In this document: one piece after another, positions 16,311 through 21,205 of the stretch
Numbering within the stretch: the first letter of the stretch is position 1
How the letters are laid out: each line of letters begins with the position of its first letter
Assembly (NCBI GenBank): GCA_000828975.1
Contig: AP014683.1
Coordinates: 1 to 64,000 of the forward strand
DNA from: Burkholderiales bacterium GJ-E10
Lineage (GTDB): Bacteria > Pseudomonadota > Gammaproteobacteria > Burkholderiales > Burkholderiaceae_F
Length of the DNA stretch: 64,000 nt
Direction of reading: 5' to 3'
Program-made: the position numbers and the translations under genes
Notes under the pieces: generated by a model
What the model saw: the letters and a program-made list of their open reading frames with translations, nothing else
What the model was told of the DNA's origin: nothing
Databases searched by the model: none

Positions 16311-16590
16311 CATTCAAGTTTTTTCGTTGGGCGGCGGACGGCAGATCCGCCCCCGGGGCGTTGAGGGGCGCGTCCCGGCAGCGAAGAAACAAGGCACCCG
16401 ACATCGTTGTCGGGGTTCCGCCTGAGTTGTTACCGGACGCGGCGCAGGAAGCGCGGTCCGGTTCCGCGGTCGGCCCGCGATCTTGATCTTGTGTCGGGCC
16501 GCGATGGGTATCGAATGGAGCGTTGCTTCAGCCTGTGTCGACCGGTGGTCGGAGGCAAGGGGGCGCGCATTTTCGAGAGAGAGGTTGATC
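16311..16590 (+). ncRNA. Hairpin-rich 5' leader or independent small RNA
   Basis: No coding signal is seen in this 280-nt stretch. It holds three consecutive strong stems. The first is CCCGACA/TGTCGGG (16397-16414) with a TCGT loop. The second is ACCGGAC plus GCGC paired with GCGC plus GTCCGGT (16432-16462). The third is CGGCCCG/CGGGCCG (16471-16501). A good promoter lies just upstream and no T-run follows the stems, so a long regulatory leader of the transglycosylase gene is the simplest reading. It does not match a riboswitch class I can name. Confidence 0.45.
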
Positions 16591-17412
16591 ATGCTGGAAA
16601 CCAGCCTTGCCGAGGAAGTTGCGTTCCCCGAGGCGCTCCCGCGTCCCCAGGGGAAAGCGGGGATCCCGACGGCCAAGTCGGCGTTGGTGCGCAAATCGCT
16701 TGCCATGGTGTTGCAGGGGACGGGGTTGCTGTCCGTTGCCGCGCTGACGATCCTGTTCATCCTGTTTGCGGTGCCGGCGCTGCGCAGTGCGGTCGCGCCG
16801 GTGGTCGCGCAAGCCGCGGCGCCCGTGGTGGCGAAACTCGAGGGCGAGGCGCACGCCGCGGAACCGGTTGCGCCGCCGGCGGCATCGGCGAGCCTGAAGA
16901 TCGGCGAGCCGGTTTCCCTGGCGACGGCCGACGAGCGTGTCGCGCAATACCTGGCGCGGCGCTATCACATCGCCGACGGGGCGGTGCGGGTGCTGGTCGC
17001 CGCGGCGCGGTCGGCGGGGCTGCGGCATCAGGTCGATCCGCTGCTGATCCTGTCGGTGATGGCGGTGGAGTCCAGTCTGAACCCGTACGCGCAGAGCGCG
17101 GTCGGCGCCACCGGGCTCATGCAGGTCATGCCGGGCGCGCACCTGGCCGAGTTCCCTTCGCAAAACGCCCGCCGCGCCGCGCTCGACCCGATCCAGAACG
17201 TGCGGGCGGGAACGGCGATCCTCGCCGATTACATCCGTCGTGGCGGCTCGGTGCAGCGTGGCCTGCAGCTGTATGTCGGGGCGGGGAACCTGCCTGACGA
17301 TGGCGGGTATGCGAGCCACGTTCTGGCCGAGATGGCGCGATTGAAGCTTGCCGCGCAGGGGCGGATCGGCGCGGCCTTGAGCGAGGCGCAGCACGCCGAT
17401 CGGGGCGCTTGA
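16591..17412 (+). CDS. Membrane-anchored lytic transglycosylase (SLT fold)
   Basis: 273 residues. An N-terminal transmembrane segment at about 45-70 anchors a periplasmic SLT domain. The catalytic Glu is in VESSLNPYAQS (about 155-165), followed by GATGLMQVMP, the signature of family 1 lytic transglycosylases. It cleaves peptidoglycan glycan strands to anhydromuropeptides. Start ATG 16591 with AGAGAGG upstream; an open frame reaches 16483 but lacks family similarity. The gene is set between two RNA candidates, with its promoter about 290 bp upstream. Confidence 0.85.
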   Translation: MLETSLAEEVAFPEALPRPQGKAGIPTAKSALVRKSLAMVLQGTGLLSVAALTILFILFAVPALRSAVAPVVAQAAAPVVAKLEGEAHAAEPVAPPAASASLKIGEPVSLATADERVAQYLARRYHIADGAVRVLVAAARSAGLRHQVDPLLILSVMAVESSLNPYAQSAVGATGLMQVMPGAHLAEFPSQNARRAALDPIQNVRAGTAILADYIRRGGSVQRGLQLYVGAGNLPDDGGYASHVLAEMARLKLAAQGRIGAALSEAQHADRGA

Positions 17413-17442: not shown

Positions 17443-17475
17443 AAAAAAAAGAGCCCGTCCATCAAGCGGGGGCCC
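17443..17475 (-). terminator. Terminator of the minus-strand small RNA
   Basis: Read on the minus strand, a CCCG/CGGG stem with a 9-nt loop is followed by CTC and eight T residues (17443-17450). The stem is short but the U-tract is strong. No protein gene on the minus strand would need it. Confidence 0.6.
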
Positions 17476-17552
17476 GGATTCGGTTGAGGAGGGAGGAGAG
17501 GTACCGAGACGGGGGCCGCGAGCTCATGCTGCAGGACAGGCTCACACGAAAC
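17443..17552 (-). ncRNA. Candidate small RNA with an anti-Shine-Dalgarno loop
   Basis: A minus-strand unit with its own promoter (17559-17588) and a terminator with eight U residues (17443-17450), predicted at about 105-110 nt. An outer stem GGCCC/GGGCC (17513-17517 with 17471-17475) encloses an inner stem UCGGU/ACCGA (17503-17507 with 17480-17484). The inner stem displays an 18-nt loop that in RNA reads ACCUCUCCUCCCUCCUCA (17485-17502), complementary to Shine-Dalgarno sequences. No open frame of interest is seen. It lies between the transglycosylase (convergent) and maeB (divergent). It resembles, by analogy only, sRNAs that present CU-rich loops to mRNA ribosome-binding sites. Confidence 0.65.
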
Positions 17553-17558
17553 GCCTTT

Positions 17559-17588
17559 ACTATATCGTCCAGCCTTCGTCCAAGTCAA
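17559..17588 (-). promoter_or_regulatory. Sigma-70-type promoter of the small RNA
   Basis: On the minus strand TTGACT (17583-17588), 18 nt, then TATAGT (17559-17564). It is a near-consensus promoter with no downstream protein gene. It lies about 57 bp from the divergent maeB start, in a region with repeated CGTCCA and a GTCC-T-GGAC inverted repeat at about 17595-17603. Confidence 0.7.
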
Positions 17589-17644
17589 CTTTTTGTCCTG
17601 GACGGAAGTGCTTCAAATTACATCGGGTTTGCGCCCCATTTTTC

Positions 17645-19981
17645 ATGTCGACCACTCCGAATCCAGACCTCCGCAGCGCGGCGCTCGAATACCATGAATT
17701 CCCCCAGCCGGGAAAAATCGCCATCACGCCCACCAAGCAGTTGACGACCCAGCGCGATCTGGCGCTGGCCTATTCCCCCGGCGTCGCGGCGGCCTGCGAG
17801 GCCATCGTCGCGGATGCCGGCGCTGCCGCGCGCTACACCGCCCGGTCCAACCTGGTCGGCGTGATCACCAATGGCACCGCCGTCCTGGGGCTGGGCCCGA
17901 TCGGTCCATTGGCCGCCAAGCCGGTGATGGAGGGCAAGGCGGTCCTGTTCAAGAAGTTCGCGGGCATCGACGTGTTCGACATCGAAATCGATGAGCGCGA
18001 TCCGGATCGGCTGGTCGACATCATCGCCGCGCTCGAACCCACGTTCGGCGCGCTCAATCTCGAGGACATCAAGGCGCCCGAGTGCTTCCGCATCGAGCGG
18101 AAATTGCGCGAACGCCTGCACATCCCCGTGTTTCACGACGACCAGCACGGTACGGCGATCATCGTCGGCGCGGCGGTACTCAACGGCCTGAAACTGGTGG
18201 GGAAATCGCTGGCGCAGGTGAAACTGGTCTGCAGCGGCGCGGGCGCGGCGGCGCTGGCCTGCCTCGACCTGTTGGTGGAACTCGGCCTGCCCCGGGAAAA
18301 CATTTGGGTCGCGGACATCGAAGGCGTGGTGTACGCCGGCCGGACCGTGCTGATGGACGAAGAGAAGGTGCGATTCGCCCAGGTGACGGATGCCCGTCGC
18401 CTGGCGGACTGCATGCCCGACGCCGATGTATTCCTCGGCCTGTCCGCGGGCGGGGTATGCACCGGGGAGATGGTCTCCACGATGGCGCCGGACCCGCTCA
18501 TCCTGGCGTTGGCCAATCCGGTGCCGGAAATCCTGCCGGATCAGGTGCGTGCCGTGCGCAGCGACGCGATCATCGCGACGGGCCGCTCCGACTATCCGAA
18601 TCAGGTCAACAATGTCCTCTGCTTCCCGTTCATGTTCCGCGGCGCGCTCGACGTCGGGGCGACGGCGATCACGCGCGAGATGGAAATCGCGGCAGTGCAT
18701 GCCATCGCCGGCCTTGCGCAGGAGGAGCCGAGCGACGAGGTGGTCACGGCATACGGCGACGCCGATCTGCGCTTCGGCCGCGAATGCATCATTCCGAAGC
18801 CGTTCGACCCACGCCTGATGTTGCGGGTCGCCCCGGCGGTCGCGCTGGCGGCGATGCGAGGCGGCGTGGCGACGCGGCCGCTGGCCGATCTCGCGGCATA
18901 CCGCGCGCGGCTGCAGCAGTTCGTCTATCACTCCGGCACGTTCATGAAGCCCATCTTCGCGATCGCGAAGCAGGCCCATGCCGACGGGGCCGCGAATCGG
19001 GTGGTATTCGCCGAAGGGGAGGACGAGCGCGTCCTGCGCGCGGTGCAGGTCGTGGTCGACGAAGGCATCGCGCAGCCCGTGCTGATCGGCCGGCCGGCGG
19101 TCGTGGCGCAGCGACTGGAACGGTACGGCCTGCGGATGCGCGCGGGCGTCGACTTCGAACTCGTCAATCCGGAGTCGGATCCGCGGTATCGGCAGTACAG
19201 CGAGGAATACCACCGCATCGCGGGGCGTCGCGGGGTGACGCTGCAGACTGCGCGGATCGAGATGCGTCGCGCGCAGACCCTGATCGGCACGATGCTGATC
19301 CATCAGGGGGCGGCCGACGCGATGATCTGCGGTACCGCCGGGACGTACCGCCAGCACCTGCGCTACATCGATCAGGTGCTCGGCCTGCGACCGGGGGCGC
19401 GGGTCTACGGCGCCATGAACATCCTGGTGCTGCCCGGGCGACAGGTCGCCCTGGTGGACACGCACGTCAACGTCGATCCGAGCGCGGAGGAGATCGCCGA
19501 ACTCACCGTCGCCGCCGCCGCGGCCTTGCGGCGCCTGGGCATCATCCCGCGCGCTGCGCTGCTGTCGCACTCCAACTTCGGCAGCAGCGATGCGCCCACC
19601 GCGATCAAGATGCGCGAGGCGCTGGCCCGGATCCGGGAGCGTGCGCCCGAACTGGACGTCGACGGCGAGATGCATGCGGACTGCGCGGTCGACGGCGCCA
19701 TGCGCCGGAGCATTCTTGCGACGTCGACGCTGAAGGGGGATGCGAACCTGCTCGTGTGTCCGGGCATCGACGCGGCGAACATCGGCTACAACTTGCTCAA
19801 GACGATTTCGGGCAATAATGTCGCCATTGGTCCGATCCTGCTGGGCGCGGCGCGCCCGGTCCACATCCTGACGCCTTCGGCGACGGTGCGGCGCATCGTC
19901 AACATGACGGCGCTGGCGGTGGTGGACGCGAAGGCGCCGTGCGAAGCCGGTTCGGGTTCGCCACCATCCGGGGAAGCCTGA
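17645..19981 (+). CDS. maeB: NADP-dependent malic enzyme with phosphotransacetylase-like domain
   Basis: 778 residues. The N-terminal malic enzyme half (about 1-430) has [22 protein letters not shown] and [13 protein letters not shown] for NAD(P) binding. The C-terminal phosphotransacetylase-like half (about 440-778) has [13 protein letters not shown]-type sequence and [15 protein letters not shown]. MaeB oxidatively decarboxylates malate to pyruvate, making NADPH; the PTA-like part is usually regulatory. ATG 17645 has no good Shine-Dalgarno sequence. It is divergent from the small RNA and 9 nt upstream of the patatin gene. Confidence 0.95.
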
Positions 19982-19990
19982 ACCCGCGTT

Positions 19991-21205
19991 TTGGACGCCA
20001 CTCCCGCCCGTCTTCGGCAACGCACGTCGCCCGCCGCGCTCGTCCTGATGGGCGGCGGCGCGCGCGCCGCCTATCAGGTCGGCGTGCTGCGGGGCGTTGC
20101 CGCGCTCCTGCGCGGGGTCCGGAACGGCAACCCGTTCCCGATCCTGTGCGGCGCGTCGGCGGGCGCGATCAATGCCGCGGCCCTGGCGTCCGGCGCCCAC
20201 GATTTCCACGATTCCGTCGCACGACTCGGGCGCGTCTGGGAAAACTTCCATGCCGGCCAGGTGTATCGCTCCGACCTCGTCGGCGTCGCGCGCACCGGTG
20301 CGCCGTGGATGTCCCTGCTCTCGGTGGGATGGCTCGTCGGCAAGTACTGGCGCGCGCGCCCGCGCTCGCTCCTCGACAATGAGCCGTTGCGCAAGCTGCT
20401 GCGGGAGATGCTCGACATCGGCGGCATCGAACGGGCCTTGCAGAGCGGGCATCTGCGCGCACTCGCGGTCGGCGCGTCGAGCTACAGCTCGGGTCGCCAC
20501 GTGACGTTCTATCAGGCGCTGGCGGAGCAGGAACTGCCGCGGAGCCTGCATCGGATCTCGGTCCGCACGCGGATCGGCATCTCGCACCTGCTGGCGTCGG
20601 CGGCGATTCCCATCGTGTTTCCGGCGGTGCCCCTGGACATCGACGGCGCGCTGGGCGGCGGTATCGAATATTTCGGCGACGGCTCGATGCAGCAGATTTC
20701 GCCGACCAGTCCGGCGATCCATTTCGGCGCCGAGCGGCTGCTCGTGATCGGGGTCGGCCAGAACGGCGGGTCCGGGTGGGGCGCCGAGCCGGCACCGACC
20801 CGTTCCTACCCGTCGCTGGCGCAGGTCGCCGGACATGCCTTGTCGACGATCTTTTTCGACGCCCTCGCGTACGACGTCGAACAGCTCGACCGCATGAACG
20901 AACTGGTGGAGACGATGAGTCCGAATCAGCGTCGCGCGGCCGGACTGCGGCCGGTGGAAATGTTGATGATCGCGCCCAGCGTCCCGATCGACGAGATTGC
21001 GATGAACTCGATCCGCCACCTGCCCAAGCCGGTACGGAGCCTGCTCGAGTCGATCGGCGCGGACCGCGCCGACGGCGCGGCGCTGGCGAGCTACCTGTTG
21101 TTCGAGGCGCCGTATACCCGGGCGCTGATCGACCTCGGGCTGCGCGACGCGATGGCGAAGAAGGACGCGCTGATGGCGTTCTTCACCGAGCGGGTGCCCG
21201 GCTGA
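19991..21205 (+). CDS. Patatin-like phospholipase
   Basis: 404 residues from a TTG start, the only start that covers the first motif. A patatin domain has the oxyanion loop GGGARAAYQVGVL (about 20-32), the nucleophile motif GASAG (about 54-58) and the catalytic Asp in FGDGS. The Ser-Asp dyad hydrolyses acyl-lipids. The C-terminal region (about 280-400) is family-specific and helical. It follows maeB by 9 nt and ends 36 nt before the convergent rsmE. No secretion signal is seen, so a cytosolic or membrane-surface role is likely. Confidence 0.85.
   Translation: MDATPARLRQRTSPAALVLMGGGARAAYQVGVLRGVAALLRGVRNGNPFPILCGASAGAINAAALASGAHDFHDSVARLGRVWENFHAGQVYRSDLVGVARTGAPWMSLLSVGWLVGKYWRARPRSLLDNEPLRKLLREMLDIGGIERALQSGHLRALAVGASSYSSGRHVTFYQALAEQELPRSLHRISVRTRIGISHLLASAAIPIVFPAVPLDIDGALGGGIEYFGDGSMQQISPTSPAIHFGAERLLVIGVGQNGGSGWGAEPAPTRSYPSLAQVAGHALSTIFFDALAYDVEQLDRMNELVETMSPNQRRAAGLRPVEMLMIAPSVPIDEIAMNSIRHLPKPVRSLLESIGADRADGAALASYLLFEAPYTRALIDLGLRDAMAKKDALMAFFTERVPG

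Follow-up and report, generated by a model that had tools for sequence, protein, structure and literature searches.

A small RNA gene of about 110 nt, almost certainly a real feature, was found on the minus strand of the Burkholderiales strain GJ-E10, an iron-oxidising chemolithoautotroph isolated from an acidic river (PMC4319606), at positions 17552 to 17443 of the window, that is, the whole 64,000-nt stretch of DNA that was analysed (G000:C1:1-64000, where G000 is the genome of the window, a single contig of 3,276,549 bases). The RNA belongs to a conserved family and is predicted to fold into a rod with one C/U-rich loop, and its promoter is preceded by a dyad that also occurs upstream of the gene of a MerR/B12-binding regulator of the CarH/LitR type. 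Taken as a whole, the reading favoured here, with some confidence, is that of a trans-acting C/U-loop riboregulator that would block Shine-Dalgarno sites and would be under LitR/CarH-type (light/B12) control. The preliminary description of this DNA had proposed a small RNA with an anti-Shine-Dalgarno loop, a reading that the conserved C/U loop and the covarying stems support, while the dyad upstream of the small RNA promoter and the CarH/LitR-like regulator sharing it are new. The features of the locus are the following:

16483..17412, plus strand: transglycosylase-like ORF, read in the window
17443..17552, minus strand: small RNA gene, about 110 nt, its 5′ end placed according to the -10 box
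17443..17450, minus strand: U8 tail of the terminator, from the sequence
17451..17460, minus strand: 3′ arm GGACGGGCUC of the closing/terminator helix, from fold and covariation
17485..17502, minus strand: apical loop ACCUCUCCUCCCUCCUCA, 18 nt, complementary to GGAGG-type Shine-Dalgarno sequences
17534..17543, minus strand: 5′ arm GAGCCUGUCC of the closing helix, from fold and covariation
17559..17588, minus strand: sigma70-type promoter TTGACT-N18-TATAGT, 10 of 12 consensus positions
17645..19981, plus strand: maeB (NADP-malic enzyme type), the divergent neighbour of the small RNA gene in all 17 loci

To begin with, the near-consensus promoter and the eight-U terminator tail that had been read on the minus strand were both recovered (17588..17559 and 17450..17443, respectively). 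In particular, the promoter was the sole promoter-like site detected between positions 16500 and 18500, with a mean of 0.1 in shuffled sequences, while the terminator scan alone was no better than chance (one found vs. 1.1 in shuffles). The two neighbours previously mentioned, a transglycosylase and maeB, were also present as plus-strand ORFs, their names being given by eye from the protein sequence. Furthermore, an open frame of 1133 codons was observed on the minus strand (17618-21019), opposite maeB and the next gene, and was taken as a high-G+C artefact.

In the predicted fold, the 5′ end of the RNA (GAGCCUGUCC) pairs with its 3′ end (GGACGGGCUC) in a closing helix of ten pairs that doubles as the terminator stem, so that the RNA would form a single long rod closed by its own terminator. 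Inside this helix lie the stems GGCCC/GGGCC and UCGGU/ACCGA and the 18-nt loop ACCUCUCCUCCCUCCUCA, all of which had been proposed earlier, although the main end-to-end helix had been overlooked. As a single sequence, the fold was moderately unusual (z of -2.4 for the 110 nt, equalled by 4 of 200 shuffles, and of -0.4 to -0.6 for shorter pieces), and the small RNA stands above chance because of the comparison between genomes and the covariation.

An initial BLASTN search found matches in 9 of 41 genomes (G000 and 40 relatives), of which eight were true copies and one (L009) was dropped as a chance hit. The covariance model R1, built on the eight true copies, was searched against 67 genomes of the family at an E-value of 0.01, resulting in matches in 18 of them; a short, terminator-like match in G058 (L027) was dropped. 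Thus, a total of 17 of the 67 genomes, representing 7 of 18 genera, had full-length matches (E-values from 7e-33 to 2e-12), one per genome, and in all 17 loci the small RNA adjoined maeB divergently according to tblastn, while it appeared in none of the 44 family genomes without a maeB match. A second model, R2, built on all 17 copies, was searched against 399 genomes of the order and gave five matches, all previously known and none outside the family; since few candidates were scored per genome, diverged copies may have been missed in this search. Conservation at this junction, for which a covariance search in other Betaproteobacteria had been suggested as a check, thus held inside one family, while no match appeared outside it among the 399 genomes. 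Moreover, the loop-core pattern CGGTNCCTCTCCTCCCTCC appeared at 20 loci in the genome contigs, 10 of which fitted R2 at E-values of 3e-20 or better, the other 10 being taken as chance. A degenerate copy of 19.3 bits that had lost the C/U loop was observed upstream of maeB in G014 (L085, 2220-2329), where the maeB match ends at a run of N. Another five short matches, from genomes with the small RNA (L028-L032), were not counted, as they were terminators of another C/U-rich RNA. This second RNA, at another locus in five genomes of the genus (about 1501-1541 in L028-L032, from G001-G005), carries ..CUCCUGUCUCCUCC.. followed by a GAGCCUGGUC/GACCAGGCUC terminator, and scored weakly as RF02278 at two places (G003 and G004).

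The predicted rod fold is supported by compensatory changes. In the alignment fitted to the R1 structure (A4), 95.1% of 425 cells were paired, and double changes were found in 12 of 25 pairs, compared to 5.1 in shuffles and 0 to 5 in slid versions; the MAFFT alignment (A3) gave double changes in 9 of 25 pairs. Moreover, the identity between genera (110 sequence pairs) was 88% in the loop, 77% in the stems, 43% in other unpaired positions and 34% in the leader (the first ten bases). The loop is thus more conserved than the helices presenting it, as expected of a pairing site, and the preservation of loop and stems among relatives, on which the preliminary description had staked its case, was observed. 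The C/U loop was most often 22 nt long (ten copies), a form with an additional UCCC unit; the other copies had loops of 18 nt (three), 20 nt (two), 17 nt (one) or 23 nt (one).

Upstream of the small RNA promoter, a 15-bp dyad with the consensus TTTGWCCWRGACAAA ends a short distance ahead of the -35 TTGAC. The sites found in the window are the following:

17592..17606, unstranded: dyad TCCGTCCAGGACAAA (minus) / TTTGTCCTGGACGGA (plus), predicted operator with the top matrix score in the 64-kb window
17575..17589, unstranded: second, weaker dyad-like site GTTGACTTGGACGAA, which overlaps the -35 box and was ranked eighth by the matrix in the window

The dyad appeared with three mismatches or fewer in 16 of the 17 promoters, the remaining one (L017) being degenerate with four mismatches to the consensus, whereas among 1000 stretches of 110 nt drawn at random from the same loci, the sites themselves included, 19 matched TTTGWCCWRGACAAA equally well. 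Its position was fixed relative to the -35 box of the small RNA, while the distance to maeB varied. A next-best dyad-like site of the GTTGACTTGGACGAA type was listed in 4 of the 17 loci, and the copy at 17575..17589 is a possible further part of the operator. In eight genomes, TTTGWCCWRGACAAA with one mismatch gave 16 rows vs. 5 for the reversed control, an excess that came mainly from G000 and G008 (10 rows vs. 0): G000 had six rows (four distinct places) vs. none, G008 had four vs. none, and G012 had none vs. two. The exact sequence TTTGTCCNNGACAAA, searched in 24 genomes, was found at 11 places in eight genomes, all eight having the MerR/B12-binding regulator gene; seven of these places were at the regulator gene, two at the small RNA and two elsewhere, and none appeared in the five genomes without the regulator. 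One-mismatch dyads were also present in genomes lacking the regulator, such as G021 (13 rows vs. 4 in the control). Furthermore, a matrix was built from the best sites of 16 of 17 regions upstream of the regulator (12 distinct), leaving out L126, whose best site had five mismatches, and L137, in which the regulator starts in a run of N. This matrix ranked the small RNA promoter site first in the 64-kb window (17.1, the next being 12.3) and first in 16 of the 17 loci, and third in L017; however, the test is partly circular, as the consensus used to choose the sites came from the small RNA promoters, and the genome-wide dyad searches with controls are the cleaner evidence. Dyads were also observed at other genes. 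A perfect one lies upstream of a minus-strand GGDEF-like gene (diguanylate cyclase type, by eye; L109 1501-1515, G000:C1:1510789), and one-mismatch dyads lie upstream of another MerR-type regulator, distinct from the first (L161 338-352, G060), and of a PAS/GAF histidine kinase (L162 1548-1562, G000:C1:972647; L155 in G001; L156 in G005), the flanks of the latter being 84-85% identical in the three genomes.

The regulator gene carries the dyad upstream at several places. In G000, the dyad at position 2729628 overlaps the start of the MerR-type gene, located at G000:C1:2729632-2730588, and it also precedes the MerR/B12-binding gene in G023 (L113) and G008 (L115), where the contig ends after 20 codons. 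The protein found at L119/L120 has the combination of MerR helix-turn-helix and B12-binding domains seen in CarH/LitR proteins, with MerR_1 (PF13411) and B12-binding_2 (PF02607) above the Pfam cut-off, while the B12-binding match (PF02310; E-value of 1.3e-5) scored 25.4, below its cut-off of 32.1. Its best NCBIfam match was CarH (NF052513), with 115.3 bits compared to a cut-off of 400, and its best PDB match was also CarH (5c8d, 3e-26); the protein is a relative of CarH outside the named NF052513 equivalog. W131, E141, H142 and H177 are key residues for AdoCbl (coenzyme B12), and GxxW, EH, GxxH and GxxxP are signatures of the light response (PMC11796333). In an alignment with TtCarH, whose numbering is used, equivalents of these four residues appeared in all 18 regulators (17 usable alignment rows plus L133), and W-x9-EH and the cobalt-ligand histidine were thus kept in 18 of 18. 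However, the glycine of GxxH was found in none of the 18 and that of GxxW was kept in 14 and absent in four, for which reasons, together with the second B12-binding domain being below the Pfam cut-off, B12 binding by the regulator is uncertain, AdoCbl binding being plausible from the residues kept.

The regulator was present in 18 of the 67 genomes at an E-value of 1e-20, plus a fragment in G008. It accompanied the small RNA in all 17 genomes having the latter (in G008 as the fragment), and appeared in only 2 of the other 50, although such co-occurrence is inflated by the relatedness of the genomes. The two exceptions were G016, without the RNA, and G014, with the degenerate copy. Conversely, G019, G022, G058 and G062 had maeB and no regulator match, and all four lacked the small RNA. 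Regarding the regulator neighbours, Pfam identified folE2 (L120, G000), glutathione peroxidase (GSHPx) and a flavin amine oxidoreductase (L129), a short-chain dehydrogenase (SDR; L136, in a genome without the small RNA) and a photolyase-related protein (L130 and L133), each from one or two Pfam-tested loci, with similar frames seen elsewhere by eye. In Pseudomonas, the light-inducible LitR regulon comprises phrB, an FAD oxidoreductase, cryB and folE, one repressor of the regulon has a site overlapping the -35 box, and class II LitR has a LOV partner and does not bind B12 itself (PMC9758184). Because the regulator neighbours and the operator resemble that regulon, the small RNA was read as belonging to a regulon for light or photo-oxidative stress, a link that we infer from the kinship of the regulator and its neighbours. 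Control of the small RNA by the CarH/LitR-like protein is probable given the shared dyad, whereas for light or B12 as the signal the chances are roughly even at best.

Possible targets were sought as GGAGGGAG followed by ATG at a distance of 2 to 12 nt. In the GJ-E10 genome, GGAGGGAG before ATG appeared 20 times, compared to once for the reversed pattern, but only 10 of the 20 sites led frames of at least 60 codons. The search in nine genomes gave 69 rows, and 68 loci (L164-L231, in which some sites are represented more than once) were read for frames, among which no convincing target common to different genera was found. Shared target proteins were limited to L166/L185 and L183/L202, within genus g1, and L186/L214, with 34% identity between g12 and g1, while L227/L228 were two places in G023. 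The best candidate in GJ-E10 was motB (named by eye; L207, G000:C1:2594868), with the leader GGAGGAGGGAG and a loop duplex of -29.4; this candidate was confined to part of genus g1, as G002, G005 and G006 showed lower complementarity, while G003, although in that genus, and the other genera had none. The target prediction with the loop, proposed beforehand as a check, thus yielded a candidate and none conserved across genera. The complement of the loop with up to two mismatches gave 16 rows in five genomes vs. 14 in the reversed control. As a target, maeB was rejected, since its duplex energy equalled that of random sequence (-7.8 vs. a random mean of -7.6, comparing its 60-nt start region with random windows of 40 nt).

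From these observations, a mechanism can be proposed. The CarH/LitR-like regulator would bind the dyad, centred about 47 bp before the start, and block the small RNA promoter in the dark or when loaded with coenzyme B12, and light or loss of the cofactor would release it, allowing the RNA to be made. The stable rod would then hold the C/U loop open, and the loop would pair with GGAGG ribosome-binding sites in several mRNAs, whose translation would thereby be blocked. Such anti-Shine-Dalgarno action is likely. Hfq-dependent sRNAs end in a U-tract, like the U8 here, and Hfq, which is encoded in the GJ-E10 genome, would probably take part. The full proposal, namely that a C/U-loop sRNA stands under the direct control of a B12/light-sensing repressor of the CarH/LitR type and serves as the post-transcriptional arm of a light or photo-oxidative response, is advanced tentatively. 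If true, light would switch on one RNA damping the translation of many GGAGG-led mRNAs, in bacteria not known as phototrophs.

Other explanations were weighed. It would be possible, albeit unlikely, that the C/U-loop riboregulator has its dyad bound by a different factor and responds to a metabolic signal (malate/pyruvate), for which the adjacency to maeB would be the clue: the 17 loci beside maeB and the 44 genomes lacking both fit this explanation, and analogous C/U-loop sRNAs are described as regulating carbon metabolism (NmsR, PMC5362039; ncS27, PMC5688073). However, the dyad holds its spacing to the -35 box while the distance to maeB changes, it also lies upstream of the regulator gene, and the four genomes with maeB and without the regulator all lack the small RNA. 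That the conserved RNA targets a protein or acts as an sRNA sponge, instead of pairing antisense with mRNAs, would agree with its rod shape, with the strong conservation of the loop and with the absence of a conserved target in the searches; this is improbable, given that the loop consists of CUCC repeats as in S17, which pairs near ribosome-binding sites (PMC11722255), and that the excess of GGAGGGAG-ATG sites over the reversed pattern indicates that partners exist, even with only half of them leading frames of sufficient length.

A small protein encoded at the locus is the least probable of the explanations considered, as no start and frame was common to the 17 copies and a 4-nt difference in loop length, present between many of the copies, breaks the frame, despite the 21-codon ATG frame of the window copy. 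Only slightly less remote is that the small RNA is a diverged member of RF02278 (the double-hairpin or 'toxic' sRNAs, such as ncS27 and S17). The two have in common CUCC repeats that could pair with ribosome-binding sites, and a weak match was indeed obtained in the window, but at 14.6 bits compared to a cut-off of 50, with 12 positions flagged as non-standard pairs, and the RNA forms a closed rod and not two hairpins. Furthermore, G000 had no RF02278 match of its own, G008 had a full copy (59.3 bits) elsewhere than the present sRNA, other genomes with the small RNA carried weaker RF02278 matches, and no intermediate sequences were noticed among the matches in the 67 family genomes. The C/U-loop riboregulator under CarH/LitR-type control thus continues to be the preferred reading. 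In the open-licence PMC literature, no publication linking a regulator of the CarH/LitR type to a small RNA appeared among the matches listed, and nothing was found on an sRNA at maeB in Betaproteobacteria. The analysis suggests a connection, open to testing, of riboregulation with a regulator of the B12/light-sensor type, and, as GJ-E10 is an isolated strain, a comparison of the expression of the small RNA in light and dark should be feasible.

Regarding known RNA families, none in Rfam (release 15) reached its gathering cut-off in any of the 17 small RNA loci, in agreement with the earlier statement that no named family was known here, so a conserved family with a single-loop design, absent from Rfam 15 at gathering score, is added to the anti-Shine-Dalgarno sRNAs. 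The suhB/mmgR sRNA belongs to Alphaproteobacteria; its model (RF00519) resembles the present RNA in the UCCUCCCU element and the terminator and differs in having two hairpins, and identity with it was rejected at 18.7 bits, below the cut-off of 41. RF02278 (ncS03/05/27/62 of B. cenocepacia, with S17 of B. pertussis as a relative) shares unpaired C/U repeats able to cover ribosome-binding sites, as in the conserved loop here, a U-tract terminator and its occurrence in Betaproteobacteria; however, it has two consecutive short hairpins and several copies per Burkholderia genome, while the present sRNA is a single rod, supported by covariation, with one full-length match per genome beside maeB. 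Within this group, S17 represses by pairing near ribosome-binding sites with its CUCC repeats (PMC11722255), and ncS27, an sRNA of the C/U-loop type, regulates carbon metabolism (PMC5688073). The alpha-r14/cuckoo RNAs (NfeR1) also have an ultraconserved anti-Shine-Dalgarno motif in unpaired regions and variable stems (PMC10746234), but they are alphaproteobacterial, with other promoters and three hairpins; in contrast to several hairpins each with CCUCCUCCC, the present RNA has a single loop (ACCUCUCCUCCCUCCUCA in the window copy), and homology between them was compared via Rfam.

The CcsR RNAs carry a C/U motif. CcsR1-4 of Alphaproteobacteria serve the photo-oxidative stress response and would be a functional parallel to the present sRNA in this respect (PMC7074977). 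The NmsR siblings of Neisseria share anti-Shine-Dalgarno motifs and act on central metabolism, although they are a tandem pair with a series of stem-loops under stringent-response control (PMC5362039). As for the promoters controlled by CarH/LitR, the likeness lies in a MerR-type regulator with B12-binding domains, an operator at the -35 box and folE and photolyase genes in the regulon, whereas the targets named there are protein genes and the one here is a small RNA, and the Pseudomonas operator is TGTACA-N12-TGTACA compared to TTTGTC-N3-GACAAA here (PMC9758184). Overall, it is proposed that the small RNA acts in the manner of the double-hairpin, alpha-r14/cuckoo and NmsR RNAs, no Rfam family having matched it at gathering score.
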